DNA from: a virus | IMG/VR virus record: IMGVR_UViG_3300023174_000228 | Span: 1 to 52,514 of that record | Length of the DNA: 52,514 nucleotides | Strand: one strand, 5' to 3' | Shown: piece after piece, positions 9,964-37,040 of the stretch | Numbering within the stretch: the stretch's first letter is position 1 | How the letters are laid out: each line of letters starts with the position of its first letter | Made by a program: the position numbers and the translations under genes | Notes under the pieces: model-generated | Database searches by the model: none | Told to the model about the DNA's origin: nothing | The model's input: the letters and a program-made list of their open reading frames with translations, nothing else

Positions 9964-11030
9964 AAAAAACATTTGTTACAGTGACAGGCATACGTCCGGA
10001 TTTTATCCGTATGTCGGAAATTTTTAAAAAGCTTGATGATAATTTCAATCATGTCATGGTTCATACCGGGCAGCATTTTGATACAATGCTTTCAGATGTT
10101 TTTTTTAATAATCTTTCTATTAGAAATCCAGATCATAATCTTCATGTTGGTGGAGAAGGTAAAGAACATTTTCACCAAACTGCAGAAGCTTCAGTAAAAC
10201 TTATTGAACTTTTGCGAACCTTAAAAAATGTTGATGGTGTTATCTTTTTAGGAGATTCCAATTCAGTTGCATCTTCAGTCGCAGTAAAAAAAGAAGGATA
10301 TTGTGTAATTCATATTGAAGCGGGAATGAGATCTGGAGACCGAAGAATGCTAGAGGAAATCAATCGGGTTGTTTGTGATAGTGTGTCTGATATTCTTTTC
10401 GTTTATCATGAAAACTATAAGCAAAAATTGTTAAAAGAAAATATTGATGCCCAAAACATTCATGTAGTGGGAAATACTATCGTTGAAGTTGTAAAACAAA
10501 AGAAGTTTGGACAAAGAACATATGAACATGTTTTGGTTGATATTCATCGTCCAGAAAATTTCTTATATAAAAACCGAATGCAGATTTTGTTGGACTATAT
10601 AAAACATTTCAAGAAGAATTATGGTTATACATTCTTATTTTTAAACTTTCCTAGAACAGTAAAAAAACTTGAAGAATATGGATTATATGAAGAATATAAA
10701 AAGAATTGCATATGCATACCTCTTCAAAGTTTTGACGAATATCTGAAATTATGCAATCGTTCTATTTTTATCATAAGCGATTCAGGAACAGCCCAAGAAG
10801 AACCTGCATTATTAAATGTTCCAGTGATTGTTCCTAGGGATTATACTGAACGACCCGAAAGCATACAAAATCATTGTTCGATTATGTTAAAAATAAATGA
10901 TCATGTTTGTCGTTATGAAATAGATAATATAAATAATTTTGTTAAAAAATTTGAAGAAAATAAAAATATTGACTGGTTGGGAAATGGAACTACATCTGAA
11001 AAAATAATCGAGGTATTAAAAAATATATGA
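9960..11030 (+). CDS. wecB: UDP-N-acetylglucosamine 2-epimerase (non-hydrolysing, WecB type)
   Basis: Interconverts UDP-GlcNAc and UDP-ManNAc. 356 residues, the usual length. Recognisable motifs in order: TGIRPDFIRM, HTGQHFD, GDSNSVASS, HIEAGMRSGD, EEINR, DIHRPENF and SDSGTAQEEPALLNVPVIVP. Embedded among glycosyltransferases with four-base overlaps on both sides. Supplies ManNAc or a derived sugar for the local glycan. The GDSNS loop, where many homologues have GDT, is a small departure. Confidence 0.85.
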   Translation: MKKTFVTVTGIRPDFIRMSEIFKKLDDNFNHVMVHTGQHFDTMLSDVFFNNLSIRNPDHNLHVGGEGKEHFHQTAEASVKLIELLRTLKNVDGVIFLGDSNSVASSVAVKKEGYCVIHIEAGMRSGDRRMLEEINRVVCDSVSDILFVYHENYKQKLLKENIDAQNIHVVGNTIVEVVKQKKFGQRTYEHVLVDIHRPENFLYKNRMQILLDYIKHFKKNYGYTFLFLNFPRTVKKLEEYGLYEEYKKNCICIPLQSFDEYLKLCNRSIFIISDSGTAQEEPALLNVPVIVPRDYTERPESIQNHCSIMLKINDHVCRYEIDNINNFVKKFEENKNIDWLGNGTTSEKIIEVLKNI

Positions 11031-11878
11031 ATATGGACTGTGTTGTAATAGGTACAAATCTTAAAAATAGATTTGAAAACTTAAAAAAATGTACAGAATT
11101 TTTAGACAAATACAATTTTACTATAAAAAATCTAACAATAGATGATTTTGTGGAAAATATCGAAAAAGATTTTTCTTCATTTGAAAAATATGGATGGAAT
11201 GTTTTTGTTCACGAAAGAAAAGGAATTTTTGGAAACTTGGTTGAAGGATCTAAAAATTTTATTTCTGATTGGGTTTTTTATTGCGAGGATGATGTATCTG
11301 TGGAACGAATTCCTACAAATGAAGAAATAGAACAAATACAAAAATTGAAAAGTGATGGACGTGAAATCGGAGCAATTTTATTAATGTTTTCTGGAATGGA
11401 ACAGGGAAGAAATATAGATGAATTAAATGATTATCTTAAATCTGAAAAATCTTATAAAGAATTGTCCTCCGAAACAAAGATTTTTTTACGGCAAGAAAAA
11501 TTTAAAAATGATTTTTTTATAAATTTTCCAGTAATTATTTTTAAACGTGAAGTTTTGCAACAATTAATTGAATATATAAAAAATAATAAACAAGGAGTTC
11601 AAGTTGAACAAGCATTTTCACAGGCATGGTTTGAAACTGAAATATATAAAAAATATTTTACAGTTTCATACATAAAAAATTTTAAAAAATTGGAACTTAA
11701 GAATGTTGAGGATGCCAGTTTTTTGTCTGCGAAAGACATTGAATATTTCGGATCTAAACTAAATAATTTTTTACAAAATCGTGTAATCACAAAAGAAATA
11801 AATGAAAGTCATATTTTTGTAAAAACACTTGAAAATGGTTGGAATGATAATTCAATAATCGGAGGAAAAGGTTGCTAA
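11027..11878 (+). CDS. Putative glycosyltransferase, GT-A-like
   Basis: 283 residues. WVFYCEDDVSV has the position and form of a GT-A DxD motif, and the surrounding genes are all glycan enzymes. The rest is lysine-rich and diverges from standard GT2, so family placement is uncertain. Start ATG overlaps the epimerase stop (ATGA). Likely a sugar transferase. Confidence 0.55.
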   Translation: MNMDCVVIGTNLKNRFENLKKCTEFLDKYNFTIKNLTIDDFVENIEKDFSSFEKYGWNVFVHERKGIFGNLVEGSKNFISDWVFYCEDDVSVERIPTNEEIEQIQKLKSDGREIGAILLMFSGMEQGRNIDELNDYLKSEKSYKELSSETKIFLRQEKFKNDFFINFPVIIFKREVLQQLIEYIKNNKQGVQVEQAFSQAWFETEIYKKYFTVSYIKNFKKLELKNVEDASFLSAKDIEYFGSKLNNFLQNRVITKEINESHIFVKTLENGWNDNSIIGGKGC

Positions 11879-11879
11879 T

Positions 11880-12659
11880 ATGAAAATTATAGGTTTTGCT
11901 CAACTCAGAAATGAAGCTTCTCGGGGTAATCTGGAAAATTGGTTCCGATGCATGGAACCTTGTGATCATATTTATATATGGGATCAGGCAAGCACGGATA
12001 ATAGCCGAGAAATATATGAAAAATATAAGCATAAAACAACAGTTCTTTACAGCCCAGTAAACAGATTTAATGAAGAACTTATATGCAAAGCTGAATTATA
12101 TAAACTTTTATTAAAAGAACATCCAGATGTTGATTGGGTATTATGGCTTGATGGTGATCTTTTACTTGATGGAAGACTTTTAGTTGATGATAATTTAAGA
12201 AAGCTTTGCAAAAAGTTGGATGATAAGGGTATTGATTTGCCTTGTTTTGGTCATTATAACCTTTGGAGAAGCGATGTTTGGTATAGGGTAGATCAAGGTT
12301 ATCACAATCTGCATTTACATTGGTTTCCTCTTTGGGGAAAGCCAACCCGCCTATGGTTTGAAGAAATAAAAGGATTGCACCATGGTCAAGTGCCCCAAGG
12401 AACAGTCAGAGGATGTCCTGTTGATGTGAGTGTGATTCATTTGGGATTCAGTAAAGATAGGTATATTGTTGACAAATATTTAAACTATAAATCTCTTGGT
12501 CAAAAAGGATGGGATTTGGATCGTTTGATTGACGAAGAAACACTTACTGTAGAAAAATTGCCAGAAAAAATTATTCCCGATTGGTTTAAAGTAAACGAAG
12601 AGCAAAATCCTATAAACAAAAAAAAGCTGATTGAACTTTATTCCGGAGAAATATCATGA
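11880..12659 (+). CDS. Glycosyltransferase, GT2/GT92-like
   Basis: 259 residues. Opening strand IIGFAQLRNEASRGNLENWF, then IYIWDQASTDNSREI and WVLWLDGDLLL, which together give the nucleotide-binding and DxD (DGD) sites. The RNEA...D..STD..R pattern is that of GT2 and GT92-like enzymes. Begins one base after the previous stop and is followed by an ATGA overlap. Acceptor unknown. Confidence 0.7.
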   Translation: MKIIGFAQLRNEASRGNLENWFRCMEPCDHIYIWDQASTDNSREIYEKYKHKTTVLYSPVNRFNEELICKAELYKLLLKEHPDVDWVLWLDGDLLLDGRLLVDDNLRKLCKKLDDKGIDLPCFGHYNLWRSDVWYRVDQGYHNLHLHWFPLWGKPTRLWFEEIKGLHHGQVPQGTVRGCPVDVSVIHLGFSKDRYIVDKYLNYKSLGQKGWDLDRLIDEETLTVEKLPEKIIPDWFKVNEEQNPINKKKLIELYSGEIS

Positions 12660-13408
12660 TACCCAGGAATGTTGAAATCATCACTATGATTTATAAAAGT
12701 ATCGATTTTTTGGATTTTATAGTTGATCAATTTTCTTCAGATGTTTGTAAATCAGAAAATATAAAAATAGGGTTTCGAATAATTTGTAATGATGCTTCAT
12801 ATAAAGTTTTGGAACATATAAAAACAAAACCTATAAAATATTCAATTTATAATGATCAAAACCCAAACGATTATTATTTGAATCGGACATATCGTGCATG
12901 GAATTATGGGGGTATGACAAGTGAATTTGACAATATTATTTTTGTTAACAGCGATATGGCTTTTAGTGAAGGATGGATTGATGGTTTGTTTCAGCATCAT
13001 AATGGAAAAAACATTCCATGCAGCAGGCTTGTTGAAAGTGGACGTTTGGAAGTTGGAGCAGGAATACCAAATAGAGGTTGGGCTCGGGAATATAATTTTG
13101 GTACCCATCCAAAAAATTTTAACAATAAAGCTTGGTTGGAAAGTGCAAAAATATCCAGATTAGATAAAATAGGATCTCTAGGTCTTTATATGCCTTGTTT
13201 ATTTGAAACTAAAACATTCAGGGAATCGGGTGGTTATCCAGAAGGAAACCTTTATACAACAGGAATAGGTAAATTTGGAGATCCTTTTTTAAAATCTGGA
13301 GATGATTATTATTTTCATGATATTCTGGAAAAAAAATATGACATGAAACATATAACTTGTTTTAATTCTTTGGCATATCATATCCAGGAGGGAGAAAAGA
13401 GTGAGTAA
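12656..13408 (+). CDS. GT-A fold glycosyltransferase
   Basis: 250 residues. Features IITMIYKSIDFLDFIVDQF at the start, RIICNDAS in the donor site, IIFVNSDMAFSEGW as the DxD-like motif, and a C-terminal SGDDYYFHDILEKK segment. Overlaps both neighbours. Probably adds one residue of the phage-encoded glycan. Confidence 0.65.
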   Translation: MIPRNVEIITMIYKSIDFLDFIVDQFSSDVCKSENIKIGFRIICNDASYKVLEHIKTKPIKYSIYNDQNPNDYYLNRTYRAWNYGGMTSEFDNIIFVNSDMAFSEGWIDGLFQHHNGKNIPCSRLVESGRLEVGAGIPNRGWAREYNFGTHPKNFNNKAWLESAKISRLDKIGSLGLYMPCLFETKTFRESGGYPEGNLYTTGIGKFGDPFLKSGDDYYFHDILEKKYDMKHITCFNSLAYHIQEGEKSE

Positions 13409-13823
13409 TATGGAAAAAATATATTCTAAAATTAACGGCCAACTTCTTCACCAAATTGTAAGATACAATGATATTGTATCAACTCGTACTGATTTAAGTT
13501 CTGAAGAAACATATTTGCAATGTGCTGCATTAAAATTGCCCAAAGGACAAACATTTAAACCTCATAAACATAATATTAACCCAAGACATGATGAAAATTA
13601 TATACCACAAGAAAGTTGGTGTGTTATAAAAGGAAAAGTACAATGTATTTTTTATGATATAGATGATACTATAATTGCGGAGCCGATATTATCAGCTGGA
13701 GATGCTAGTTTTACATTTGCAGGCGGGCATAATTATTTAATATTAGAAGATGATACATTTGTTTATGAATATAAAACTGGTCCGTATTATGGTCAAAAAA
13801 TTGATAAAACATTTATTTTGTGA
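13401..13823 (+). CDS. Cupin-fold protein of the glycan cassette
   Basis: 140 residues. FKPHKHNIN provides His metal ligands and ESWCVIKGKVQCIF the second cupin strand pair; a typical single-domain cupin. A purine-rich Shine-Dalgarno (GGAGGGAG) precedes the GTG at 13401. Cupins in sugar clusters act as 3,4-ketoisomerases or epimerases, or are WbuC-like proteins of unknown role. The N-terminus does not match FdtA/QdtA, so the reaction is left open. Confidence 0.65.
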   Translation: MSNMEKIYSKINGQLLHQIVRYNDIVSTRTDLSSEETYLQCAALKLPKGQTFKPHKHNINPRHDENYIPQESWCVIKGKVQCIFYDIDDTIIAEPILSAGDASFTFAGGHNYLILEDDTFVYEYKTGPYYGQKIDKTFIL

Positions 13824-14344
13824 AAATTGGCCAGGATGTAATTTTAGATTTGGATATTGTAATAAAACAAAAAGATAATTGTATCATATATAATCATGTT
13901 GCTATAGATAAAGGGTTTTATTGTACAACACAAATATCAATTGGTAATTATGTGCATATCAGTCCTTATGTAACTATTTTAGGAGGTAAAACTGCTAACT
14001 TTATTGCTAAAGGATTTAACAACATAATGGCAGGAGCTAGAATAATATGCGGATCTGACAGATTTGACGATAGTGGTTTGTTTGGAGCAATGATACCGCA
14101 TGAACTAAAAGGCAAGCAAATTATAGAATCTGTAATTATGGATGAATTTTCTAATATAGGAACAAATTCAATCGTACTACCAGGTTCCAGATTAAGAAAA
14201 GGTGTATTATTGGCTGCCGGAAGTTTATTATTAGGTGATACCGAAGAATGGGGTGTATATAAAGGAAATCCTGCAGTATTAACTAAAAAAATTGATGGCA
14301 CCAAAGCTATTTCTAATGCAAAAAAATTAGGTTATAATAACTAA
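13820..14344 (+). CDS. Left-handed beta-helix acyltransferase
   Basis: 174 residues with hexapeptide-type turns (IGNYVHISPYVTILGG, IMDEFSNIGTNSIVLPG) and a WGVYKGNPA C-terminal signature shared by sugar O- and N-acetyltransferases. GTG start in a GTGA overlap with the cupin gene. Beside a DegT aminotransferase and Gmd, N-acetylation of an amino-deoxy sugar (such as GDP-perosamine) is the natural prediction; this is inference. Confidence 0.75.
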   Translation: MKIGQDVILDLDIVIKQKDNCIIYNHVAIDKGFYCTTQISIGNYVHISPYVTILGGKTANFIAKGFNNIMAGARIICGSDRFDDSGLFGAMIPHELKGKQIIESVIMDEFSNIGTNSIVLPGSRLRKGVLLAAGSLLLGDTEEWGVYKGNPAVLTKKIDGTKAISNAKKLGYNN

Positions 14345-14345
14345 A

Positions 14346-14954
14346 ATGTTTAACACAGTAACAAAATTTGAAAATGAAATTGCGCTTTTTTTTAATGCGC
14401 CTTATGCAGTGGCTGTTGATAGTTGTACGCATGGTATTGAATTATGTTTGAGATTAAACAATATAACAAAGATTAGTGTTCCAGTACGTACATATTTGTC
14501 CATACCCATGTTAGCTAATAAATTAAAAATACAATTAGATTGGAGAGATGAACAATGGGATAATTTTTATAGTTTAAATTATGATGATAAAAAAATAATT
14601 GATGCTGCAGTATTATGGGAAAAAAATAGCTATATCCCAAATACTTATATGTGTGTAAGTTTTCAATTCCAAAAACATCTGAGTTTAGGTCGTGGAGGAA
14701 TGATATTATTAGATAATAAAGAAGACGGAATTATACTTAAAAAAATGAGCTATGATGGCCGTCTTCCTGATATACCTTGGAGAGAACAAAATATTGATAT
14801 ATTGGGATACCATTACTATATGACACCAGAAACAGCGCAGTTAGGACTCAATAAGTTAACACAAGCGATTGAAACAAAACCAAGAAAATGGAAATACCAA
14901 GATTGGCCAGATCTAACAAAAATGTCAGTGTTTTCTGGTCATAGGACATTTTAA
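14346..14954 (+). CDS. DegT/DnrJ/EryC1-type sugar aminotransferase, unusually short
   Basis: 202 residues against about 370-400 in the family. Retained features: PYAVAVDSCTHGIELCLRL (PLP phosphate site), and VSFQFQKHLSLGRGGMIL, where the Lys matches the PLP Schiff-base lysine of the family's SF..K.l..GeGG motif. The interdomain and C-terminal small-domain regions are reduced to a stub. The frame is clean and tightly packed, so it looks like a streamlined enzyme rather than a broken one. Expected to aminate a 4-keto sugar nucleotide, possibly the Gmd product. Confidence 0.65.
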   Translation: MFNTVTKFENEIALFFNAPYAVAVDSCTHGIELCLRLNNITKISVPVRTYLSIPMLANKLKIQLDWRDEQWDNFYSLNYDDKKIIDAAVLWEKNSYIPNTYMCVSFQFQKHLSLGRGGMILLDNKEDGIILKKMSYDGRLPDIPWREQNIDILGYHYYMTPETAQLGLNKLTQAIETKPRKWKYQDWPDLTKMSVFSGHRTF

Positions 14955-14959
14955 AAAGT

Positions 14960-14981
14960 AATAACTATTGCAATAGTTATT
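14960..14981. promoter_or_regulatory. 22-bp perfect palindrome upstream of gmd
   Basis: AATAACTATTG followed at once by its exact reverse complement, in the 51-base gap between the aminotransferase and gmd. There is no loop and no T-run, so an operator-type dimer site is as likely as a weak terminator. Confidence 0.6.
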
Positions 14982-14986
14982 GCGAT

Positions 14987-14994
14987 CATAAATA
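14987..14994 (+). promoter_or_regulatory. Possible late box upstream of gmd
   Basis: CATAAATA, 11 bases before the ATG at 15006, just after the palindrome. Confidence 0.35.
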
Positions 14995-15005
14995 CGACTA
15001 TAAAC

Positions 15006-15977
15006 ATGAAAAAAGCATTTATTACAGGTATAAATGGACAAGATGGAAGCTATTTGACCGAACATCTGATTTCGTTAGGATATGAAATATATGGAATTGT
15101 GCGCAGAAATTCTATGCCTGAACATCAACAAACAAGATTGGATTCAGTAAGAGATAAAATACATGTGCATTATGGTGATTTGTTGGATCAAGGAGTAATG
15201 GAAAGGTTGTTGCGGGAAATACAACCAGATGAAATTTATAACCTAGCCGCCCAATCTCATGTCAGAATAAGTTTTGATATTCCACAATTTACAGTACAAA
15301 CAAATGCATTAGGTGTTATTAATATATTGGAAGCATATAAACATGCATGCCCAAATGCTAAATTGTATCAAGCAAGTAGTTCAGAAATGTTTGGTTTATC
15401 CGTAGAAGAAGATGGTTCTCAAAAGGAAACAACAGTTATGAACCCTGTTAGTCCTTATGGTTGTTCAAAGGTATTTGGATACAATATAGTTCGTAATTAT
15501 AGAAGAGCATATAAATTATTTGCGAGTAATGGTATTTTATTTAATCACGAATCACCAAGACGTGGCAGTAACTTTGTAACAAACAAAGTGGTTAAAACAG
15601 CAATAGAAATTAAATTAGGTATGAAAGACAAATTAGTGATGGGTAATTTGGACTCTAAAAGGGATTGGGGTCATTCAAAAGATTATGTACGGGCAATGCA
15701 TTTAATATTGCAACATAATAAACCTGATGATTGGGTAGTGGCAACAGGCGAAACACGTTCTGTTAGAGATATGTGTAACTATGTTTTTGATAAATTACAA
15801 TTAAATTACAAAGATTATATTGTGCAAGATCCGAAATTTTTAAGACCTGAAGAATTGCCCTACCTAAGAGGTGATTGTACAAAAATTACAACCGAATTAG
15901 GGTGGAAACCTGATTATACGTTTGAGCAATTAATGGATGAGATGATTGAATATTGGCTAAATTTTTATAAAAAATGA
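15006..15977 (+). CDS. gmd: GDP-mannose 4,6-dehydratase
   Basis: Converts GDP-mannose to GDP-4-keto-6-deoxymannose. 323 residues; extended SDR with the Gmd-specific nucleotide loop GINGQDGSYL at 8-17, YNLAAQSHV, the serine-rich ASSSEMFG, the catalytic YGCSK (Tyr, Lys), and LFNHESPRRG with RDWGHSKDYV for GDP-sugar binding. Only the cysteine in YGCSK is unusual. Its product could feed the aminotransferase/acetyltransferase pair upstream and a fucosyltransferase-like enzyme at 16947. Confidence 0.92.
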   Translation: MKKAFITGINGQDGSYLTEHLISLGYEIYGIVRRNSMPEHQQTRLDSVRDKIHVHYGDLLDQGVMERLLREIQPDEIYNLAAQSHVRISFDIPQFTVQTNALGVINILEAYKHACPNAKLYQASSSEMFGLSVEEDGSQKETTVMNPVSPYGCSKVFGYNIVRNYRRAYKLFASNGILFNHESPRRGSNFVTNKVVKTAIEIKLGMKDKLVMGNLDSKRDWGHSKDYVRAMHLILQHNKPDDWVVATGETRSVRDMCNYVFDKLQLNYKDYIVQDPKFLRPEELPYLRGDCTKITTELGWKPDYTFEQLMDEMIEYWLNFYKK

Positions 15978-15983
15978 TATATC

Positions 15984-16937
15984 ATGAATAACATTATAGA
16001 TAAATCCAAATGGGGACAATTTAAGAATGGGTGGCTGGTAAATGATTGTTTGACATGCATACCTAATACAAGAACGTTTTGGCATGATTTATTAGATTGG
16101 TTTCCTAATCTTAAAGACAAATGTAATGGATATACAGATTATTCAATACTTCCAAATGTAATAGAATCTACTAAACCTTATCCTGATTATATTATTAGAA
16201 ATGGTTCTTATTTTCGTAAACTTAATATTGATGTTCCTACATTCAGTTTAATTCAAGATACGATGAATGAACCTATGCAAACAGAAGTTATAAACGCATC
16301 CACATGTGTAGTTTTTGCTTCAAAACAAACATACAATATTTATAAAGATAGAATTAATCCAAAAAACGTAAGAGTAATTGAACAATCATCTGATTTTAAT
16401 TTTTTTAAACCTATCCCTGAAAGACATCCTGATGTTTTACCTAATTCAATTATTTTTATAGGTGATTCTTCATATCATAAAAAAGGATTTCATCGAGTTT
16501 TGAATCTAATAGAAGCGATGACCGATTTTAATTTTTGTTTAGTAATGAAGGATAATACTAATTTGGATGTCATACCATCTCACAGTAGAAATCGTGTACG
16601 TATATTCAACAGAGTTAATACCGAAACAGTCAGACTTTTAATTAATTCATCTGTATGTGCTATTTGTACTTCCGGAAATGAAGAGGGTCATTTTGCCGGG
16701 ATAGAAATAGGCGCATGTGATATTCCAATGGTATCAAGACCTATGGGATGTTATCTGGACAGAAAAGACGATAAAACCTGGGGATTAATAGCAAATGATG
16801 AAGATTTTCCAAACACAATAAGATATGTTGTAAAAAATCTTAATTTATTTTCTCCTAGACAATATTACTCAAAGGAATATACTCTTGAACGGTGCCGTGA
16901 AAAATGGACAACTGTATTAAATGAATTTGTGAAATAA
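15984..16937 (+). CDS. GT-B fold glycosyltransferase (GT4-like)
   Basis: 317 residues. SIIFIGDSSYHKKGFHRVL and NSSVCAICTSGNEEGHFAGI are the donor-site elements of GT4 enzymes, the second holding the conserved Glu pair region. Six bases separate it from gmd. Likely uses a GDP- or UDP-sugar produced here. Confidence 0.75.
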   Translation: MNNIIDKSKWGQFKNGWLVNDCLTCIPNTRTFWHDLLDWFPNLKDKCNGYTDYSILPNVIESTKPYPDYIIRNGSYFRKLNIDVPTFSLIQDTMNEPMQTEVINASTCVVFASKQTYNIYKDRINPKNVRVIEQSSDFNFFKPIPERHPDVLPNSIIFIGDSSYHKKGFHRVLNLIEAMTDFNFCLVMKDNTNLDVIPSHSRNRVRIFNRVNTETVRLLINSSVCAICTSGNEEGHFAGIEIGACDIPMVSRPMGCYLDRKDDKTWGLIANDEDFPNTIRYVVKNLNLFSPRQYYSKEYTLERCREKWTTVLNEFVK

Positions 16938-16946
16938 TTTTTTTAT

Positions 16947-17774
16947 ATGAAATTTACAGTTCAAATAGAATCTGGTTTATGTAACTTTCTTAAGTCTTTT
17001 ATTACTGCTTTAAGCATAGCAGAAACCAATATACTACCTAGAGTTAATCATTGGTTTGATGCAGATTGTCGAGAAATTTTTGATGATTCTTTAATTTGTC
17101 ATGGTCCACATGAATTTGGTGAATCATTTATTTCAGCTAGATTTCTTATTTTAAAATCAGAAGAATCAGAACAGCCCGATTTAATAAATGATGCTAAAGT
17201 TTTGGGAAGAAAACCTGATATTACAAATGAAAATATTGCTCATTTATTTTCAGAAAATCTTACTATTGATTGGTTTTACGATAGAAGTCTTATATGTGAT
17301 AAAGTATATAAAAGGATTCAAAATGGAATTGAAAAAATTAAATGGAAAAATGAGGTTTTATCCGAGGTAGATAGAGTTTCTAAGCAATTTGAATATCCAT
17401 TATTAACAATACAAATAAGAACATGGACACACAAGTTTGATCCTCCTAACTGCACTCAAATTCGTGATGGCGTTATAAGAGATTATAATTTTGAAACATA
17501 TAAAAATGCAATTGATAAATTTTTACCAAAAGCAAAAACAATTTTTCTTACTTCAGATAAAGACGGCGTTTTACCAGAATATTTTGATTATTTGAAAGAT
17601 TACAATGTAATAACATATATTAAACCAAATCATATCACGCAAATGCAATATTCTGCAGCAACAATGTTATTGGGTGCAAAAAGTGATATGTTAGTTTGTA
17701 GTCGACTCAGTACATTTGCTGAGTGTATGTGGTGGTTTGGTGGGTGTAAAGCCGATACAATACCTGTTTTTTAA
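16947..17774 (+). CDS. Fucosyltransferase-like enzyme (GT11/GT23/POFUT-like)
   Basis: 275 residues. GLCNFLKSFITALSIAE at the start corresponds to the G-x-x-N loop of alpha-fucosyltransferases; LLTIQIRTW is the conserved donor-binding Arg strand, followed by IFLTSDKDG and a C-terminal SRLSTFAECMWWFGG. These elements in this order are what I know from the GDP-fucose-dependent superfamily. A GDP-6-deoxyhexose donor fits with gmd close by. Donor identity is inference. Confidence 0.65.
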   Translation: MKFTVQIESGLCNFLKSFITALSIAETNILPRVNHWFDADCREIFDDSLICHGPHEFGESFISARFLILKSEESEQPDLINDAKVLGRKPDITNENIAHLFSENLTIDWFYDRSLICDKVYKRIQNGIEKIKWKNEVLSEVDRVSKQFEYPLLTIQIRTWTHKFDPPNCTQIRDGVIRDYNFETYKNAIDKFLPKAKTIFLTSDKDGVLPEYFDYLKDYNVITYIKPNHITQMQYSAATMLLGAKSDMLVCSRLSTFAECMWWFGGCKADTIPVF

Positions 17775-17791
17775 AAAAATTATCGTAAAAT

Positions 17792-17819
17792 TTGACAATT
17801 TTTTACTAATTGATATATA
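17792..17819 (+). promoter_or_regulatory. Sigma-70-like promoter of the epimerase-rmlC-rmlD block
   Basis: TTGACA, 16-base spacer, TATATA, then eight bases to the ATG at 17828. Confidence 0.55.
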
Positions 17820-17827
17820 AGGTTAAT

Positions 17828-18793
17828 ATGGATAAAATACTAATTATTGGTGGATCAGGATATATTGGAGGTTATTTGACTGATCTTATAACGAAGTCAC
17901 CAACAACAAAAAATTATAATCTGTTAAAGCCTGCAGTTTTAGACAATTTGATTTATGAAGATCGTTTCTTAAAACAAGTGGATTTTTATAATATTGATGT
18001 TCGAGATGTAAAGGAATTGGATAAGGTAATTCATAATTATAAAGTTGTTGTTATGCTTGCAGCATTGGTTGGAGATCCTGCATGTGCTGTAGACAAACAA
18101 TTATCTTATGATATTAACGTTACTCCTGTTAAATGGATAACAGACAATTATAAGGGGAAAATAATTTTCACTTCAACATGTTCAGTTTATGGAAAAAATG
18201 ACGATCTTATTGATGAAAATGCAACACCAAATCCTCTTTCCATTTATGCTGAAACAAAACTTGAAGCAGAACAGTATCTTTTCTCAAAGAGACCTGATAG
18301 CTTAATTTTCAGATTAGGTACACTTTATGGGTTGGGAGATAGTCATAGTCGGCTACGTTTGGATCTGGTCGTAAATGTATTAACACTCAAGGCATCTTTG
18401 GGTGAGACATTAAAGGTATTTGGTGGAGAACAATGGCGACCTCTTTTGCATGTAAAGGATGTGGCAAATGCAACATTGTTTGGAATTTCAAATAATATTT
18501 CAGGAATCTATAATCTTTCTGAAAGAAATGCAACAATGCGTGACATCGCTGAAACCATAAAAGAAGAAATTCCATCTGCAAAGATTGAATATAGCGAAAT
18601 ACCATTTGAAGATCTTAGGAATTATAAGGTCAAAAATGAAAAGATCATGAAAACAGGATGGAACCCTCAATATTCATTGGTTTCTGGGATAAAAGAAATG
18701 AACGATGTTTTTAAACAAAAACGTGTTAAACAAGTAATGGATGATGTTTATCACAACGGAAATTATATAAGGAGACTTTATGGAAAAAAATGA
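17828..18793 (+). CDS. NAD-dependent nucleotide-sugar epimerase/dehydratase (extended SDR)
   Basis: Rossmann motif GGSGYIGGYL at residues 7-16, then MLAALVGDP, a Ser/Thr-rich STCSVYG and the catalytic YAETK, in extended-SDR order. The ATG at 17828 follows the promoter; an upstream in-frame ATG would add an unrelated extension. 14-base overlap with the RmlC-like gene indicates an operon. Substrate undefined; epimerase or reductase of a 4-keto sugar is most likely. Confidence 0.8.
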   Translation: MDKILIIGGSGYIGGYLTDLITKSPTTKNYNLLKPAVLDNLIYEDRFLKQVDFYNIDVRDVKELDKVIHNYKVVVMLAALVGDPACAVDKQLSYDINVTPVKWITDNYKGKIIFTSTCSVYGKNDDLIDENATPNPLSIYAETKLEAEQYLFSKRPDSLIFRLGTLYGLGDSHSRLRLDLVVNVLTLKASLGETLKVFGGEQWRPLLHVKDVANATLFGISNNISGIYNLSERNATMRDIAETIKEEIPSAKIEYSEIPFEDLRNYKVKNEKIMKTGWNPQYSLVSGIKEMNDVFKQKRVKQVMDDVYHNGNYIRRLYGKK

Positions 18794-19244
18794 AATTAAA
18801 ACATTAAATGGTGGATTGGCAACAGATGATCGTGGAACAGTTCGTTTTGTAAATGATTTCAATTTTGAAGGAGTTAAAAGATTTTATCAGGTACAAAACC
18901 ACCGAGAAGGATTCATCCGGGCTTGGCATGCTCACCAGAAAGAAGCCAAATATGTTTATGTTGCAAAAGGAACAGCTTTGATTGGTGCGGTTCCTTTTGA
19001 TGTAATGATGAATCTAAAAAATAAAAATGGTGAATTGGACAATTCAAAAATTTTTAAAACTGTTTTGTCTGCAAACAATCCTAAAATAGTGTATATTCCA
19101 TCTGGTTATGCAAATGGATTTAAATCTTTAGAGAAGGATACTATAATTCAATTCTTTAGCACAAGCACACTTCAAGAATCATTGGGAGATGATTTTCGAT
19201 TTGACTATGATCTTGTGGATATTTGGAAGGAGGACTACCGATGA
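18780..19244 (+). CDS. RmlC-like dTDP-4-dehydrorhamnose 3,5-epimerase
   Basis: 154-residue cupin with the RmlC landmarks: DDRGTVRFV near the N-terminus, IRAWHAHQKEAKYVYVAKG (catalytic His region), and YIPSGYANGFKSL. A strong Shine-Dalgarno (AAGGAG) precedes the ATG. It overlaps the SDR upstream and RmlD-like gene downstream. The family usually has 180 or more residues, so this is a compact form; epimerisation of another 4-keto-6-deoxy sugar is possible. Confidence 0.75.
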   Translation: MEKNEIKTLNGGLATDDRGTVRFVNDFNFEGVKRFYQVQNHREGFIRAWHAHQKEAKYVYVAKGTALIGAVPFDVMMNLKNKNGELDNSKIFKTVLSANNPKIVYIPSGYANGFKSLEKDTIIQFFSTSTLQESLGDDFRFDYDLVDIWKEDYR

Positions 19245-20071
19245 AAATAATTGTATTGGGTAAGAATGGAATGCTTGGAAGATATATTTTCAAATATCTT
19301 GGAAAGAATTTTGTTGTAAAAGGAATTACACGTGAGGATTTGGACGTTTCAGATACTGATAATTTAAAAAATAATTTTAATAAATTATATGATGTGGGTG
19401 TAAATGATCTTGTTGTTAACTGTGTAGGAACTATCAAACCCAGATGTGATGAACTGGGAGAAATCAATGCAATTAAAGTAAATTCTATTGTTCCCAGGAT
19501 TTTGGCAGATCTTTCTAAAGAAAAGGGTTTCAAACTTTTACACCCGACAACTGACTGCATTTATTCTGGAAATACAGGTGCATATAAAGAAATCAGTGAA
19601 ATGGATGTAAGTGATGTATATGGTGTAACCAAGTATTTGGGTGAAACAAAGCATGCCACTAATTTAAGAGTAAGCATTATTGGTGAGGAAACAGTTAATA
19701 AAAGAAGTCTTGTGGAGTGGTGTAAAACCTTAGATGGAAAAGAAGCAAAAGGATTTACAGATCATTTATGGAATGGAGTAACTTGTTTGACTTATGCAAA
19801 AATAATTGAAACCATGATAGAGAAGAACATATGGTGGACAGGAACACGTCATGCCCTTTCACCAAGATCATTGAACAAATATGAATTGGTTAAGCTCATC
19901 ACTGATGTTTATAAAATAAAGGTAGATTTGAAGGAAGCAGAATCTGGAAAGAAATGCGACCGCACACTACAAACAATTCATGGTGAAAATAATTTGTTCA
20001 ATATACCTGATCTTCAAGTACAGATTAGTGATATGCAAAAATTTAGTAAAGAATTATATTCTAATGAATGA
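19241..20071 (+). CDS. RmlD-like dTDP-4-dehydrorhamnose reductase
   Basis: 276 residues from the ATG at 19241, chosen because AAGGAGG lies just upstream and the ATGA overlaps the previous stop. Rossmann loop VLGKNGMLGRYIF, VVNCVGTIKP, HPTTDCIYSG and the catalytic VYGVTK follow RmlD order. It would complete a rhamnose-like pathway with RmlC here and RmlB at 32643; RmlA is not in the window. Confidence 0.75.
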   Translation: MKIIVLGKNGMLGRYIFKYLGKNFVVKGITREDLDVSDTDNLKNNFNKLYDVGVNDLVVNCVGTIKPRCDELGEINAIKVNSIVPRILADLSKEKGFKLLHPTTDCIYSGNTGAYKEISEMDVSDVYGVTKYLGETKHATNLRVSIIGEETVNKRSLVEWCKTLDGKEAKGFTDHLWNGVTCLTYAKIIETMIEKNIWWTGTRHALSPRSLNKYELVKLITDVYKIKVDLKEAESGKKCDRTLQTIHGENNLFNIPDLQVQISDMQKFSKELYSNE

Positions 20072-25244: not shown

Positions 25245-25252
25245 TATAAATA
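25245..25252 (+). promoter_or_regulatory. T4-like late promoter of the portal gene
   Basis: Perfect TATAAATA, six bases before the ATG at 25259. A TTGAAA further upstream (25226) may be coincidental. Confidence 0.7.
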
Positions 25253-25258
25253 AATAGT

Positions 25259-27061
25259 ATGGCTCAAGCTGATTATTCCTCTACAAATGACCGAGGATCC
25301 AATACTTTCGGAAGAAGTTTACAAAAGTTTATTAGTGAACGTCTTCCATACAACAACTTTGCAGTTGTTGATGTTCTATCTCAGCTAAATCCAAAATTTT
25401 CACTTTTCCAGGATACAGGAAGTCGTAGAACTGAAGCGATTGCAAAACATAGTATAAGCAGCAGCACAGGAATTAATGAAACCAATATAGGTGCGATTGC
25501 CAGTGACAATAGCGTTACCAATTATCTTTATGCAAACATACAAGCTGATAAAGCTGCTCGTATTCGTGATTATCGAACCATGGCTGCTTTTTCAGAAGTA
25601 GCAGATGCTTTGGATGAAATATGTGATGAAGTTGTGAATGTGGACGAAGAAGGTAAAATTGTAAAAATTCGTTTTCATGATGATGATTTGTCAGATATTC
25701 AAAAAGAAGAATTGCAAAAAGAGTTTCATCGTTACATTAATCTTTTTGAATTAGAAAATCGTGGTTGGGAATATTTTAGGCATATGCTTGTGGATGCTGA
25801 AATTTATTTCGAGCATATCATTCATAGAGATTATCCACAGGAAGGTATTTTAGGAGTTGTTAGCATTCCTCCAGAATTGGTCGATCCTGTTTTTGGAAAT
25901 GTTCAGAATTTGATGGTCAAAGGTTTTGTTTTAAGAAAACCACTTTTTGACAAAACCAATCCAACAAAGGTAGTGGACTATCAAATTGTTCCATTGGATA
26001 AAAATCAGGTTACTTATATTAATAGCGGAATATGGAATGAAAATAAAACAGTTCGTCTTCCTTTCCTTGAAAATGCCCGCCGTGCCTATCGTCAACTTTC
26101 TCTTATTGAAGATAGTATTGTAATTTATCGTCTTGTTCGTGCCCCAGAAAAATTGGTTTTCAAAGTAGACGTGGGAAATATGAGTCCGGCCAAAGCCGAG
26201 GGTTATATGCGCCGTCTCATGAGCCAATATTGGAGTCGTAAAACATTTGATAATAATCAGGATGCGACTGTTCAAAAGTTCAACCCACAAAGCATGTTGG
26301 ACAGTTTTTGGTTTGCTAAACGTACAGGTCAGGATGGAACCACTGTGGAACAACTTCAAGGAGGTGCAAATCTTGGAGAATTGACAGATTTGATGTATTT
26401 CATGAAGAAGTTGTATCGGAGTTTAAAGGTACCTTCTTCTCGTCTTAATCCTGAAGACACATATAAAGATGGAACAGAAATTCTTCGGGAAGAATTAAAG
26501 TTTTCAAAATTTATTATTCGGCAACAACAAAGATTTGCTGAAGGTCTTAAGAATGGATTTATAACAAATCTCAAACTTAAGAAAATGTGGTCTGAATATG
26601 GATTAAAAGAAAATCATTTTGATTTGGCATTTAATGTACCAAGCAATTTCTATGAAATGCGTGAATTGCAAAAAATGCAGATGCGCACAGAAGGATTCAA
26701 CAATATTACTAATAATGAAAGCATCAGCAAGATTTATATGCAAAAGAAGATTCTGGGATGGACAGATCGTATGGTATTGGCAAACCGTGAATTCCTTCGT
26801 AAAGATGCTGAAATGAAATGGGAATTGGATCAGATTTCAGGAGCCGGTCCGGATTGGCGTAAGCAATTTGAAGGTGGCGAGAAAACTCCAAAAGCTGGTG
26901 GGGGTGGAGAAACTCCTCCTGAATTCGGACCTTCTCCGGGTGGAGGAACAACTGCACCTACTGGTGGAGCTGCAGCTGAAGAAACCCCAGAAATACCTGA
27001 AGTCCCTGAAGGAGGTGAAACACCTGAAGCTGAAACACCTGAAACTCCTGAAGCGACTTAA
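25259..27061 (+). CDS. 20: Portal vertex protein, T4 gp20 family
   Basis: 600 residues (T4 gp20 has 524). The dodecameric portal starts head assembly and is the DNA channel. Family marks in order: YRTMAAFSEVADALDEICDE, WEYFRHMLVDAEIYFEHII, IYRLVRAPEKLVFKVDVGNM, MLDSFWFAKRTGQDGTTVEQ, LYFMKKLYRSLKVPSSRL-type segment, and EELKFSKFIIRQQQRF. The last ~65 residues are a Gly/Pro/Glu-rich tail (TPEAETPETPEAT) absent from T4. Preceded by a perfect late box. Confidence 0.96.
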   Translation: MAQADYSSTNDRGSNTFGRSLQKFISERLPYNNFAVVDVLSQLNPKFSLFQDTGSRRTEAIAKHSISSSTGINETNIGAIASDNSVTNYLYANIQADKAARIRDYRTMAAFSEVADALDEICDEVVNVDEEGKIVKIRFHDDDLSDIQKEELQKEFHRYINLFELENRGWEYFRHMLVDAEIYFEHIIHRDYPQEGILGVVSIPPELVDPVFGNVQNLMVKGFVLRKPLFDKTNPTKVVDYQIVPLDKNQVTYINSGIWNENKTVRLPFLENARRAYRQLSLIEDSIVIYRLVRAPEKLVFKVDVGNMSPAKAEGYMRRLMSQYWSRKTFDNNQDATVQKFNPQSMLDSFWFAKRTGQDGTTVEQLQGGANLGELTDLMYFMKKLYRSLKVPSSRLNPEDTYKDGTEILREELKFSKFIIRQQQRFAEGLKNGFITNLKLKKMWSEYGLKENHFDLAFNVPSNFYEMRELQKMQMRTEGFNNITNNESISKIYMQKKILGWTDRMVLANREFLRKDAEMKWELDQISGAGPDWRKQFEGGEKTPKAGGGGETPPEFGPSPGGGTTAPTGGAAAEETPEIPEVPEGGETPEAETPETPEAT

Positions 27062-27062
27062 A

Positions 27063-27070
27063 GATAAATA
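27063..27070 (+). promoter_or_regulatory. T4-like late promoter of the LCIB-like gene
   Basis: GATAAATA, five bases before the ATG at 27076, directly after the portal stop. Confidence 0.65.
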
Positions 27071-27075
27071 ATATT

Positions 27076-28161
27076 ATGTCAATTGTAAGCAAACAGGTAC
27101 TATATGATTCATTTTCAGCAGGTCATACACCTTCTTCTAATGATTTTAGAAATTTAATTGATACCACATACGGCTTTCCGCTAACTGCTATAAACTACAC
27201 AACTGGTTTGACCATCAGCCAAGGTTCTACTGGACTGCCTGTTTTGATCAATGGAACGACTTATTATATTCCTTTGTTTAACACCACTACAACAGCACCA
27301 ACGACTGCTGACCAAACTGCATATACAAATACTGTAAGAATTACATATCCTAATGCTGTTTTGGCTGAAACATTTGGAAGCAGATGTGCTACTTACATTC
27401 AAACACTTTGTGGATATACTCCAGATGATGTTGTCACAGCAGCTTGTATTTGTTCTGATGATAAAAATGCACCTATTTTCCCGAACAATACATTTGGTCA
27501 ATATCCACAATCTCTGCAACAATTCAGTGGTCCATTCTTTGCTGGAGGAATTGGTGGATATCCTTTCCCTGGAATCGTTGGTCTTTTTGCTTGGATGAGT
27601 CACGTAACAGAAACTGGTGCATTATTCATATATGTGCATCCTCACATTGGAATTACCAAGAGTGGTCAAGTTGGATTCATGAAACGCAGAGGTCAAGGTG
27701 GAAATCTAAGTCAAACATGTGGAGCTGTAAACGCTGCCCAAGCCCGAATCGTTGGTCCTTTGAGTGCAACAGCACCAACATTTCCAAGTGCAGAATTTAC
27801 AGTTAATGATTATCAACAATATACACTCGTTAATGCACTTTGGAGCAATACTACCGTAAGAAATGCACTTACAGCAGCTTCTCCTGTTCAAGGCGGAACA
27901 TATGCTCAAAGAATGAAGATAGCTACAGATGCAATTCTTAATGCTGCATTAAGTGCAGTTGAAACAATATTGCCAATTTCATATAATGCATTCTTTCAAG
28001 GTGAAAATAGTAAAGATGTTTTTGTGCATGCTGGCACATTCATCAATGTGGATGATGGATATAGCGCTTATGTGGACACGATTGCATTTAAAAAATACAA
28101 TCCTGTAACACAAACATTTACAACTCTTACTAGTCCCTTTACAGCAACTTTTGGATTATAA
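27076..28161 (+). CDS. LCIB-type beta-carbonic anhydrase-like protein
   Basis: 361 residues. The middle matches, from memory, the LCIB family (limiting-CO2-inducible proteins, a divergent beta-carbonic anhydrase group): VVTAACICSDDKNAP at 119-133 (Cys126 and Asp128 in a C-x-D motif), GGIGGYPFPGIVGLFAWMSH at 157-176, VHPHIGITKSGQVG at 187-200 (His190), and a TCGAV (Cys215). Cys-His-Cys would be the zinc site of CO2 hydration. No signal peptide. A late box precedes it and it lies next to the portal, so strong late synthesis or virion association is likely. A non-enzymatic structural use cannot be excluded. Confidence 0.6.
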   Translation: MSIVSKQVLYDSFSAGHTPSSNDFRNLIDTTYGFPLTAINYTTGLTISQGSTGLPVLINGTTYYIPLFNTTTTAPTTADQTAYTNTVRITYPNAVLAETFGSRCATYIQTLCGYTPDDVVTAACICSDDKNAPIFPNNTFGQYPQSLQQFSGPFFAGGIGGYPFPGIVGLFAWMSHVTETGALFIYVHPHIGITKSGQVGFMKRRGQGGNLSQTCGAVNAAQARIVGPLSATAPTFPSAEFTVNDYQQYTLVNALWSNTTVRNALTAASPVQGGTYAQRMKIATDAILNAALSAVETILPISYNAFFQGENSKDVFVHAGTFINVDDGYSAYVDTIAFKKYNPVTQTFTTLTSPFTATFGL

Positions 28162-28164
28162 TTT

Positions 28165-28365
28165 ATGCCAACAAATATTGCCACAGCAGTAATCAATGCG
28201 ATTACTGCAATTTTCGGTGCAATCAATAATGTATTTGGAGCAAAGAACACACCTGAAATGAAAGATCGTCAGGAAAAACAAAAAGAAGTGGATTATACAA
28301 GCAAGGCAGAACAAGCTGTAAAGGAGAAAGATGTTAAAAAGATTCGCGATATTCTCGCTGAGTAG
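28165..28365 (+). CDS. Small protein with hydrophobic N-terminal helix, 66 aa
   Basis: Residues 3-25 (NIATAVINAITAIFGAINNV) form a hydrophobic or amphipathic helix, followed by a highly charged helical tail. Its last 35 bases overlap the start of the lipoprotein gene in another frame. An inner-membrane protein overlapping a lipoprotein gene is the layout of spanin pairs (Rz/Rz1), though the lipoprotein here is long. Spanin function is speculative. Confidence 0.55.
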   Translation: MPTNIATAVINAITAIFGAINNVFGAKNTPEMKDRQEKQKEVDYTSKAEQAVKEKDVKKIRDILAE

Positions 28366-28750
28366 TTTATTGATTGCAGGATGTACCACAGTTACACCTG
28401 ATAAAATCAAAGACGAAGTATCCAGTTATGATGCCAGCACACCCACAGGGTATGATGTGCAGAATAGCGGTTTTATAGGGTTTACTGATGATGGTAAAGG
28501 TCTAATAACAGCGTTTGGTGTTTTAAGGTACAATACCCTTGTAAAAGCATATAAGATCAAATTTAAAGGTTATAAGGGGGTAGAACTTAATGAAAATGAC
28601 GGGATAACTGAATATGCAGATAAACTGGGAAATAAACTTTATATTATTGATCAACAGCATCTTGTTTATTATGCCATTCTTAACAGTTGGCGTAAAGAAG
28701 GTAAGCCTACCGATAGCATTGTGGATAAGGTAATAGACAAAGTTAATTAA
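28331..28750 (+). CDS. Predicted lipoprotein, 139 aa
   Basis: Clear signal peptide with canonical lipobox (LLIAGC, Cys18) after a basic start (MLKRF). The mature part is mixed alpha/beta (GLITAFGVLRYNTLVKAY, then KLYIIDQQHLVYYAILNSW). Overlaps the small membrane gene upstream by 35 bases, with AAGGAG before the ATG. An outer-membrane or periplasmic role, in lysis or superinfection exclusion, is inferred. Confidence 0.75.
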   Translation: MLKRFAIFSLSSLLIAGCTTVTPDKIKDEVSSYDASTPTGYDVQNSGFIGFTDDGKGLITAFGVLRYNTLVKAYKIKFKGYKGVELNENDGITEYADKLGNKLYIIDQQHLVYYAILNSWRKEGKPTDSIVDKVIDKVN

Positions 28751-30641: not shown

Positions 30642-30743
30642 TCAGATGCAGACAAAGTGGTTTTGATGGCAAAAGTAGTTGCTGCTGGTGGCGCTACACC
30701 AGCCACCCTAGTTGCAAACTTGAATGTAATTGAAGCACTTTAA
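30642..30743 (+). other. In-frame coding-like extension after the stop at 30639
   Basis: 33 sense codons in the same frame as 30210-30641, with an ATG at 30666, ending in TAA. Could be the natural C-terminus of that protein lost to a nonsense change, a readthrough product, or a separate 25-codon peptide. Its last four bases overlap the end of the uvdE gene on the other strand. Confidence 0.45.
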
Positions 30744-31639
30744 TTTATATTAATAAAAGCTTTGTCTTTCATTTTAAATTCAAAATCAATATCAATATCA
30801 TCCAGTCCGTAGGTATCAGGAAGTTGTTTTACATAATCAGCATGAGCCCGAGGATTTTTGCCTTCCCTGCTTTCGCTATAATGAAATAATGGACGATAAC
30901 TCCTCCAACTGTCCCTGCACAAACTAAATGCATCTTTTTCAATCATGTCATCCGGATGACATTTGTGATGCAAATAGTCAAACGTAATAGGTATCAAAGA
31001 TATTGGATAAAGATGACGGGTAAGTTTGCGTACACTCCAGCATTTGCCTTTATCATCATTTTCCACAACCAATCGTTTGCGAGCATCCAAAGTTAATAAA
31101 CCAAGATTGTCCACAAACCGTCTGGCAATATCATCAAAGTTGCCTCTGCTGTTGTTGATGTGAATGTTGATAGGACTGTTGTAATCCAATGGACAACCCA
31201 GCTGAGTAAGAAACCAACCAGTGAAGTTCAGTTCATTAATGGTGCGATTCAATGCATCTTTGTTCTCTGTGGCTAATACATTAAACTCACTGGGATGGGA
31301 TGATAAGCGCACAGGATGATCTTGGATATAATTTCGGATGAGCAAAATGGTATCAGTTATTTGTTTGCAATTGGGCAGATCTTCTAGTTTTACTTTTGCT
31401 TTGTCATATGTGATGAGCGGAAACAAATCACTGCTCAGACGATAATTGTAATTGTTTTCATAACAGAATTTGATGGCTTCACCTGTCACCATCATATTGT
31501 TAAGAATGCGATTACCCAGATCTTGCAAACCATCTTTGCGGTTCATGTTGCTGAACTTTTTATAAGTCATGGTTTTGAACTTTTTAGGTTCAACCATATC
31601 CTGCAAGCTGAGAACAATGCAACAAATGCCTCGACGCAT
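30740..31639 (-). CDS. uvdE: UV damage endonuclease (UvdE/UVDE)
   Basis: TIM-barrel repair nuclease of 299 residues that nicks 5' of UV photoproducts. Conserved elements: RLSSDLFPLITYD, VRLSSHPSEFNVLA (metal His and the SHPxxFN motif), NIHINNSRGN, RLVVENDDKG (metal Glu), IPITFDYLHHKCHP, and the C-terminal PRAHADYV His region. The start at 31639 is fixed by a promoter six bases upstream. Few phages carry this gene; it protects the genome or host against sunlight. Confidence 0.9.
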   Translation of the reverse strand: MRRGICCIVLSLQDMVEPKKFKTMTYKKFSNMNRKDGLQDLGNRILNNMMVTGEAIKFCYENNYNYRLSSDLFPLITYDKAKVKLEDLPNCKQITDTILLIRNYIQDHPVRLSSHPSEFNVLATENKDALNRTINELNFTGWFLTQLGCPLDYNSPINIHINNSRGNFDDIARRFVDNLGLLTLDARKRLVVENDDKGKCWSVRKLTRHLYPISLIPITFDYLHHKCHPDDMIEKDAFSLCRDSWRSYRPLFHYSESREGKNPRAHADYVKQLPDTYGLDDIDIDFEFKMKDKAFININ

Positions 31640-35888: not shown

Positions 35889-36110
35889 ATGAAGTTTACA
35901 ACAGAACAACTTTGGACATTATATTTTGGATTAGGTATTGCCCAAGCATGGCAAGATCAAAAAATTGAAAAGGATGAAGGTAGTTGCATACCCAAGAGTT
36001 ATCTATGTGATGTACAGGTAATAATTCTTGATGAAATTAATCGCAGACAAAACAAATCAAATTTTTTCAGGATCCGCCGAATAATGAATCTTCTTAATTT
36101 CTTTAGATAA
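35889..36110 (+). CDS. Hypothetical protein, 73 aa
   Basis: Helical protein (EQLWTLYFGLGIAQAWQDQK) with a basic C-terminus; its 3' end overlaps the adenylosuccinate synthetase gene on the other strand by 54 bases. Promoter six bases before the ATG. The pattern TLYFGLGIAQAW resembles small phage proteins of unknown function. Confidence 0.55.
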   Translation: MKFTTEQLWTLYFGLGIAQAWQDQKIEKDEGSCIPKSYLCDVQVIILDEINRRQNKSNFFRIRRIMNLLNFFR

Positions 36111-37040
36111 GTTTTCTTGGAAAAATTGAACCATCTTTTCTTTGTTTTCAAATTCAATCACTGTGTGGTTATGAATTATTTTATATAATCCTGTTTTATC
36201 CAATACATCCCATTTGTTGCTGTAAATGATATCACATCCTGATTTCTCAATAGCATAGTTCAGAAGAGTTAGATTTAACCAATTCACTTTGCGTTTACGG
36301 TTTGTGGTGGTTCCATATTCATGGCCCAGTTCAATTATTTTTGCGAATACAGGATCTTTGACTGAGTCTTCTGGAAATCTTGGATCCAATCCACTCTTTG
36401 TGTCATATGCCTTGCAAACTCCAATAATATCCCGGATTTTACGAGGAGAGAATCCAAGACTGCAAGCAGCATAAGGAAGAGTTTCACTGCTTGTCACATA
36501 AGGATAAACGCCAAAGTTGATATCCAACCAGAACGATTGGGCACCTTCACAAAGAACATTTCCTTTCAATTCACCATCCCAAATATATTTTGCATCAATT
36601 GCATCTTTAGCAAGAGTTCCACAACGAAGCATTTTGTCTGAATAACAAGGAGCAATTCCTTTTCCTGTCGTTCCCAACTTCTCCTTTAAATGTTTGTTGT
36701 CATATTCAATATGCTTGTCTGTGATAACGTGTGCATTTGGAGCTATCTTAATAAGATGAGTATCCACTCCTACACTTTTAAGATATTCTATTTCTTTATA
36801 AAATGATTCAGGATGCACAATACAATTGGGTCCGATAATGCATTTCTTTTCATTAAAAATACCAGAAGGAACCAGATGTGTTTTATACATTTTACCATTT
36901 TTGTAAATGGTGTGACCTGCATTACTTCCTCCATTCCATCTGCACACATAATCATAATTCTTTGAGAGATTATACGTTATCTTTCCTTTACCTTCATCTC
37001 CCCAGCACAGTCCAAATATGATGTCTACGTGTTTAATCAT
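36057..37040 (-). CDS. purA: Adenylosuccinate synthetase (PurA/PurZ superfamily)
   Basis: Joins aspartate to IMP (or, in PurZ enzymes, to dGMP) using GTP or ATP. 327 residues, well below bacterial PurA (about 430) and near archaeal and phage forms. WGDEGKGK at 13-20 keeps the catalytic Asp15 that classical PurZ replaces by Ser; SNAGHT gives His43; GTTGKGIAPCYSDK, CEGAQSFWLDINFG and YGTTTNRKRKVNW follow. The base-recognition region TTTNRKRK differs from the usual GRPRR. Own promoter with the same boxes as guaC. Confidence 0.85.
   Translation of the reverse strand: MIKHVDIIFGLCWGDEGKGKITYNLSKNYDYVCRWNGGSNAGHTIYKNGKMYKTHLVPSGIFNEKKCIIGPNCIVHPESFYKEIEYLKSVGVDTHLIKIAPNAHVITDKHIEYDNKHLKEKLGTTGKGIAPCYSDKMLRCGTLAKDAIDAKYIWDGELKGNVLCEGAQSFWLDINFGVYPYVTSSETLPYAACSLGFSPRKIRDIIGVCKAYDTKSGLDPRFPEDSVKDPVFAKIIELGHEYGTTTNRKRKVNWLNLTLLNYAIEKSGCDIIYSNKWDVLDKTGLYKIIHNHTVIEFENKEKMVQFFQENLSKEIKKIHYSADPEKI

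Follow-up and report, generated by a model that had tools for sequence, protein, structure and literature searches.

LCIB-type β-carbonic anhydrases make up the LCIB/LCIC family (PF18599), among whose solved members are PtLCIB4 (5b5y), 6kfs and Chlamydomonas LCIB (5k5w). One review (PMC9614477), which cites Jin et al. 2016, says of PtLCIB3 and PtLCIB4 that they seem to be constitutively active; Chlamydomonas LCIB and LCIC possess the fold and the zinc motif, yet display no activity in vitro (PMC5876011). Carbonic anhydrases encoded by viruses are also found in a giant virus of Karenia brevis (PMC13037468) and in a Pandoravirus entry of BFVD, but these differ from the present case in being viruses of eukaryotes; the BFVD matches to the enzyme core modelled below were weak (best E=0.066, TM 0.35), and nothing there reached E=0.001. 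On the phage side, Bacteroidota have been proposed as hosts of the Far-T4 phages (PMC7198788); the term 'carbonic anhydrase' is absent from the main text of that article, and 'carbonic' from the main text of another article on these phages, PMC4360716.

The window analysed here, a virus record, measures 52,514 bases, may be a fragment and has a low G+C content (33%). As in Far-T4 phages, portal and capsid are divergent versions of the T4 type, ~33% identical to those of cyanophages (the capsid being taken from the related L029); on this portal and capsid comparison, the phage group appears T4-like with a likeness to Far-T4. The features of the locus are collected in Table 1. The initial annotation had given the ORF the same limits and had placed it next to a phage portal gene, and both points stand. 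Elsewhere, the window carries several sugar-nucleotide genes in a row, glycosyltransferase and epimerase genes among them (9112-20071), and, on the opposite strand, genes for the UV-endonuclease UvdE (30740-31639) and for a short (327-aa) adenylosuccinate synthetase (36057-37040).

Table 1. Coordinates of the features at the enzyme locus (positions in the window)
Feature	Position	Strand	Basis or remark
T4-type portal gene, directly upstream of the enzyme gene	25259..27061	+	phrog_213 E=3.8e-107
Late-promoter-like octamer GATAAATA	27063..27070	+	one mismatch versus TATAAATA; 5 nt before ATG
Fusion gene: putative docking module and LCIB-type β-carbonic anhydrase	27076..28161	+	361 aa ORF
Tag A, residues 1-70, 'FSAGHTPSSNDFRNLIDTTYG...LINGTTYYIPLFN'	27076..27285	+	homologous to stand-alone post-portal proteins and to the L187 N-terminus
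Thr-rich linker, residues 71-81	27286..27318	+	read from sequence
Carbonic anhydrase core, residues 82-361	27319..28158	+	PF18599; AlphaFold2; Foldseek
C126 (predicted Zn ligand), S127 (Ser also in PtLCIB4) and D128 (catalytic Asp)	27451..27459	+	
H176, counterpart of PtLCIB4 H88	27601..27603	+	
H190, predicted Zn ligand	27643..27645	+	
R204, candidate conserved active-site Arg	27685..27687	+	
C215, predicted Zn ligand	27718..27720	+	invariant in all sequences long enough to include it
Genes for a 66-aa protein and a predicted lipoprotein of 139 aa, directly after the enzyme gene	28165..28750	+	

A late promoter had been noticed at the start codon of the enzyme gene. The observation is real, because the motif class is enriched before ATG: [TG]ATAAATA followed by 4-7 nt and ATG was found 10 times in the window versus 1.4 expected (200 dinucleotide shuffles, maximum 6). 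The enzyme gene likewise follows an octamer identical to TATAAATA or resembling ATAAATA in L024, L025, L027, L029 and L030, as well as in L014, L016, L032, L034 and L035. Within the window, late-promoter-like octamers lie 5-6 nt before start codons at 25245, 27063, 35115, 46064, 48426 (minus strand) and other places. To judge from this spacing, transcripts starting from them would be almost leaderless, or else the motif also signals the start site where a Shine-Dalgarno sequence is lacking. Downstream of the enzyme gene, the 66-aa and 139-aa proteins gave no known family. L031, L034 (139-aa only), L036 and L037 encode homologs of them (67-76%) at a distance of ~6-9 kb from the enzyme gene, and the two genes are not among the post-portal genes listed for the enzyme-free relatives L105-L107 and L109-L111 described below.

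Family, fold and distribution of the phage enzyme

Pfam assigned the protein to a single family, LCIB_C_CA (PF18599), with E=7.5e-26 and 91.2 bits against a curated cut-off of 25, over residues 112-332. The best solved relative by sequence was the LCIB protein 6kfs (1.4e-13). When a profile of the phage proteins was compared with the PDB, all eight hits belonged to the LCIB family (best 6kfs, E=5e-16; PtLCIB4, 1.8e-12). AlphaFold2, run on residues 78-361 with an alignment that took in phage relatives and two bacterial LCIBs, gave a model with a pLDDT of 81.9 and a pTM of 0.84; a model of the full-length protein was of low quality (pLDDT 59.7, mostly below 50 in the tag). In Foldseek, the core model matched 6kfs (E=7.9e-14, TM 0.80 by target length) and PtLCIB4 (4.1e-13); the next match was at E=0.02, and all those with E<=0.001 were LCIB entries. 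Alignment with Bacteroidota LCIBs by hhalign had a probability of 100 and was colinear across 232 columns. Profile and structure searches thus bear out the LCIB identity proposed by the initial annotation, and it is near certain that the product of the ORF belongs to the LCIB-type β-carbonic anhydrase family. It departs from the other family members in being phage-borne, in its additional 70-aa N-terminal phage module and longer C-terminus, and in an insert that follows CSDDKNA around NNTFGQYPQ.

The gene is no assembly accident, because 22 IMG/VR contigs encode relatives of the enzyme. None was found by tblastn among 50,697 phage records, and scans of viral contigs with eukaryotic and Bacteroidota LCIBs, based on short peptide patterns, revealed no other viral LCIB. 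A first scan of a genome collection with the phage profile returned no cellular relative; the collection scans, which look for short peptide patterns, miss distant relatives. Within the scope of these searches, an LCIB-type carbonic anhydrase has not been reported from a phage before. The identities observed were 67-80% for the enzyme, 59% for the portal (window versus G001) and 75% for the capsid (G005 versus G001). Portal and capsid identities being of the same order as those of the enzyme, the idea that the enzyme spread among unrelated phages was rejected; the gene has nevertheless moved within the clade, since it is found at three different places.

PF18599 was present in 35 of the 396 Bacteroidota genomes sampled. 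In the tree, the phage proteins grouped as a single clade (100/100) with a long branch (2.46 changes per column); the sister group, with support of 94/88, comprised six Bacteroidota LCIBs. The Bacteroidota homologs, which constitute the nearest cellular clade, have the motifs SICSDDxN, GPFxxGGxxGxPF and PHIGIT in common with the phage enzyme but are only ~225-255 aa long and lack the N-terminal module. A Bacteroidota origin of the enzyme is a lead rather than a result, because other phyla were hardly sampled in the tree. The low G+C content, the Flavobacterium and crAss-like relatives of the tag (see below) and the literature link to Far-T4 phages (PMC7198788) point towards Bacteroidota too, and the host is probably a member of this phylum.

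Two N-terminal modules and their passengers

Residues 1-70, here called tag A, form a separate module, and the protein thus joins a small phage module to an enzyme, a point missed by the initial annotation. Scanning for the portal revealed close relatives without enzyme: L105 and L106 (portal 88% identical), L111 (87%), L109 and L110 (85%) and L107 (85%). Apart from L107, which has neither the enzyme nor a tag A protein, all of these encode, at the place of the enzyme and 8 bp past the portal stop, a 95-aa tag A protein; that of L105 is 50% identical to residues 1-70 across 62 aa. More distant relatives (L117, L136, L139, L141 and L157) have versions of 91-97 aa. In a second group of carriers, the enzyme gene sits after the capsid gene, and a scan for the capsid protein of this group yielded L183 and L187, with capsids 86-87% identical to that of L029. 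In L183 a stand-alone tag A of 71 aa adjoins the capsid gene; in L187, right after that gene, tag A heads an 813-aa protein that contains collagen-like repeats and a cupredoxin-like domain. Both match the tag A model (4e-24 and 7e-12, respectively), although neither was used in building it. In the alignment, the stand-alone proteins of L105 and L183 end close to the point at which the Thr-rich linker of the window protein begins.

Further afield, the motif FETGDxPTxxQFxxLIDS and its N-terminal position are shared with proteins of phages lotta8-1 and pippi8-1 and of the crAss-like phage cr127_1, which differ in that they have no carbonic anhydrase and in that the similarity is weak (E 1e-3 to 2e-2). 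For the tag A family against the N-terminus of the 'structural protein' of the Flavobacterium phages lotta8-1 and pippi8-1, E was 2e-3 to 5e-3; the lotta8-1 annotation itself rests on sequence similarity. A family of unknown function, phrog_22781, matches the tag weakly, and also residues 229-267. Neither an HMM nor a regular expression found tag A in other proteins of the window; the hits in G005 and G001 were weak, internal and not convincing. A capsid-targeting peptide like those of the T4 internal proteins was also considered and rejected, no gp21-type cleavage motif (LxE/IxE) being visible by eye in the tag.

An unrelated tag of ~40 residues, tag B, precedes the core in L031-L037, on contigs of up to 157 kb. 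In the three records searched whole, tag B is also the N-terminus of two to three further proteins less than ~10 kb away. Among the proteins with tag B are an RCC1 propeller (Pfam E=1.5e-58), Thr-Pro repeat proteins, cupredoxin-like proteins and others in which a domain matches phrog_677 (a baseplate-wedge/fibre-connector family). The cupredoxin-like domain of L187, behind tag A, is homologous to domains of tag B proteins (E=3e-12 to 6e-9); the name is our own reading of the sequence rather than the outcome of a family search. Putative display proteins with this domain lie at L187:3491-5929, L031:7114-8556, L034:5991-8534 and L036:6396-8549. A subtilase (PF00082) encoded close to the enzyme gene of the tag B phages (L033:12011-13969) gave a weaker cupredoxin-like match (E=3.6e-4), and protease-like proteins (phrog_20754) are encoded directly beside the enzyme gene (L031:8553-9830 and L036:8492-9826).

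The two unrelated tags therefore have at least two passengers in common, the carbonic anhydrase and the cupredoxin-like domain, as expected if the tags are anchors and the C-terminal domains display cargo. This sharing, indirect as it is, constitutes the main argument for display on the virion: fusion of the enzyme to a module that elsewhere carries fibre-like proteins suggests that the virion carries an enzyme converting CO2 to bicarbonate. Virion association had been raised as one meaning of the late promoter; the modular N-terminus now lends it independent, if indirect, support, while the location on the particle is something that we infer. Our preferred reading, which we hold to be somewhat better than evenly supported, is that the phage makes an active carbonic anhydrase late in infection and docks it on its virion.

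The same protein might instead be the product of an auxiliary metabolic gene, working in the host cytoplasm late in infection and supplying bicarbonate for nucleotide or fatty-acid synthesis, or buffering pH, with an N-terminal module that does no more than stabilise or oligomerise the enzyme. The late-type promoter is compatible with this, as are the lack of a signal peptide visible by eye, the other metabolic genes of the window (dCMP deaminase, sugar epimerases, adenylosuccinate synthetase) and the absence of a tag from the nearest cellular relatives, the bacterial LCIBs; moreover, a place after the portal or capsid gene fits late expression as well as it fits a virion location. However, the enzyme has been retained behind two unrelated tags, and behind either tag there are also fibre-like or non-metabolic proteins; the enzyme genes are in structural modules, not beside the metabolic genes. 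We regard this intracellular role as rather unlikely.

Active site and selection

The motifs listed in the initial annotation are all at the places given there: CSDD at 126-129, GGIGGYPFPGIVGLFAWMSH at 157-176, PHIGI with H190 and TCGA with C215. C126, S127, D128, H176, H190 and R204 are invariant in 17 of 17 phage sequences and kept in the two bacterial LCIBs aligned with them; C215 is only at least 90% conserved in one phage alignment because L016 is truncated before it. The alignment equates C126-S127-D128 with C46-S47-D48, and H176 with H88, of PtLCIB4 (numbering fixed from the names of the S47R and H88A structure entries). The C-x-D motif, the H88 equivalent, the second His, the Arg and the second Cys are thus the same as in the LCIB/LCIC family in order and identity, and by sequence the Cys-His-Cys zinc ligand set and the Asp (C126, H190, C215, D128) align with solved LCIB chains. 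Position 127 is Ser, as in wild-type PtLCIB4, and not Arg; the solved PtLCIB4 entries include an S47R mutant.

Compared with L005, the core gave a dN of 0.043 and a dS of 0.52 (dN/dS ~0.08), and the tag a dN of 0.14 and a dS of 0.61. Against L005, L014, L025 and L027, the core is 86-94% identical and the N-terminal part 58-75%. Judged by these substitution rates, the core is under strong purifying selection. From the conserved active-site residues and the low dN/dS, we predict that the enzyme is catalytically competent.

An enzyme fold reused only structurally had been envisaged at the outset, in which case the LCIB fold would serve the virion for binding or decoration. The other passengers (RCC1 propeller, collagen-like repeats, cupredoxin-like domain) do resemble display domains, and an example of the fold without activity in vitro is provided by Chlamydomonas LCIB (PMC5876011). 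Against this, phage cores with as little as ~62% identity still have the active-site positions conserved, position 127 being the Ser of PtLCIB4 and not Arg; a Cys-His-Cys set would be superfluous in a pure scaffold, and dN/dS is low. Non-catalytic reuse is accordingly disfavoured and, in our estimation, quite improbable. A chance or convergent motif match in a protein that is no carbonic anhydrase is excluded for all practical purposes, nothing having been found in its favour and the profile, fold, tree and profile-profile results concurring against it.

Proposed display of a carbonic anhydrase on the phage particle

If the enzyme is indeed an active one docked on the virion, the gene would be expressed late and its product, a catalytically competent LCIB-type enzyme, would end up on the phage particle. 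Residues 1-70 would dock it on the head, neck or tail, the Thr-rich linker would space the docked module from the enzyme, and the C-terminal enzyme would face outward, probably as a dimer like other LCIB proteins. One point concerning the geometry of assembly counts against such docking: collagen-like partners trimerise, whereas LCIB proteins are dimeric. The displayed enzyme would interconvert CO2 and bicarbonate beside a respiring host cell, probably of the Bacteroidota; possibly, respired CO2 would be turned into bicarbonate and protons at the host surface. That local pH or carbon chemistry is shifted in this way during attachment, entry or release is a guess.

More generally, these phages may carry exchangeable domains, a working carbonic anhydrase among them, on a common docking site, so that the free virion is active on CO2 and bicarbonate; on the sequence evidence, we see the chances of this as evenly balanced. 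If true, free virions would act on the CO2 and bicarbonate of the water surrounding the host, and a metabolic enzyme on a phage docking module would blur the divide between auxiliary metabolic genes and virion proteins. The module offers a testable handle on which site of the virion takes interchangeable cargo, and on why a phage would carry a carbonic anhydrase there.
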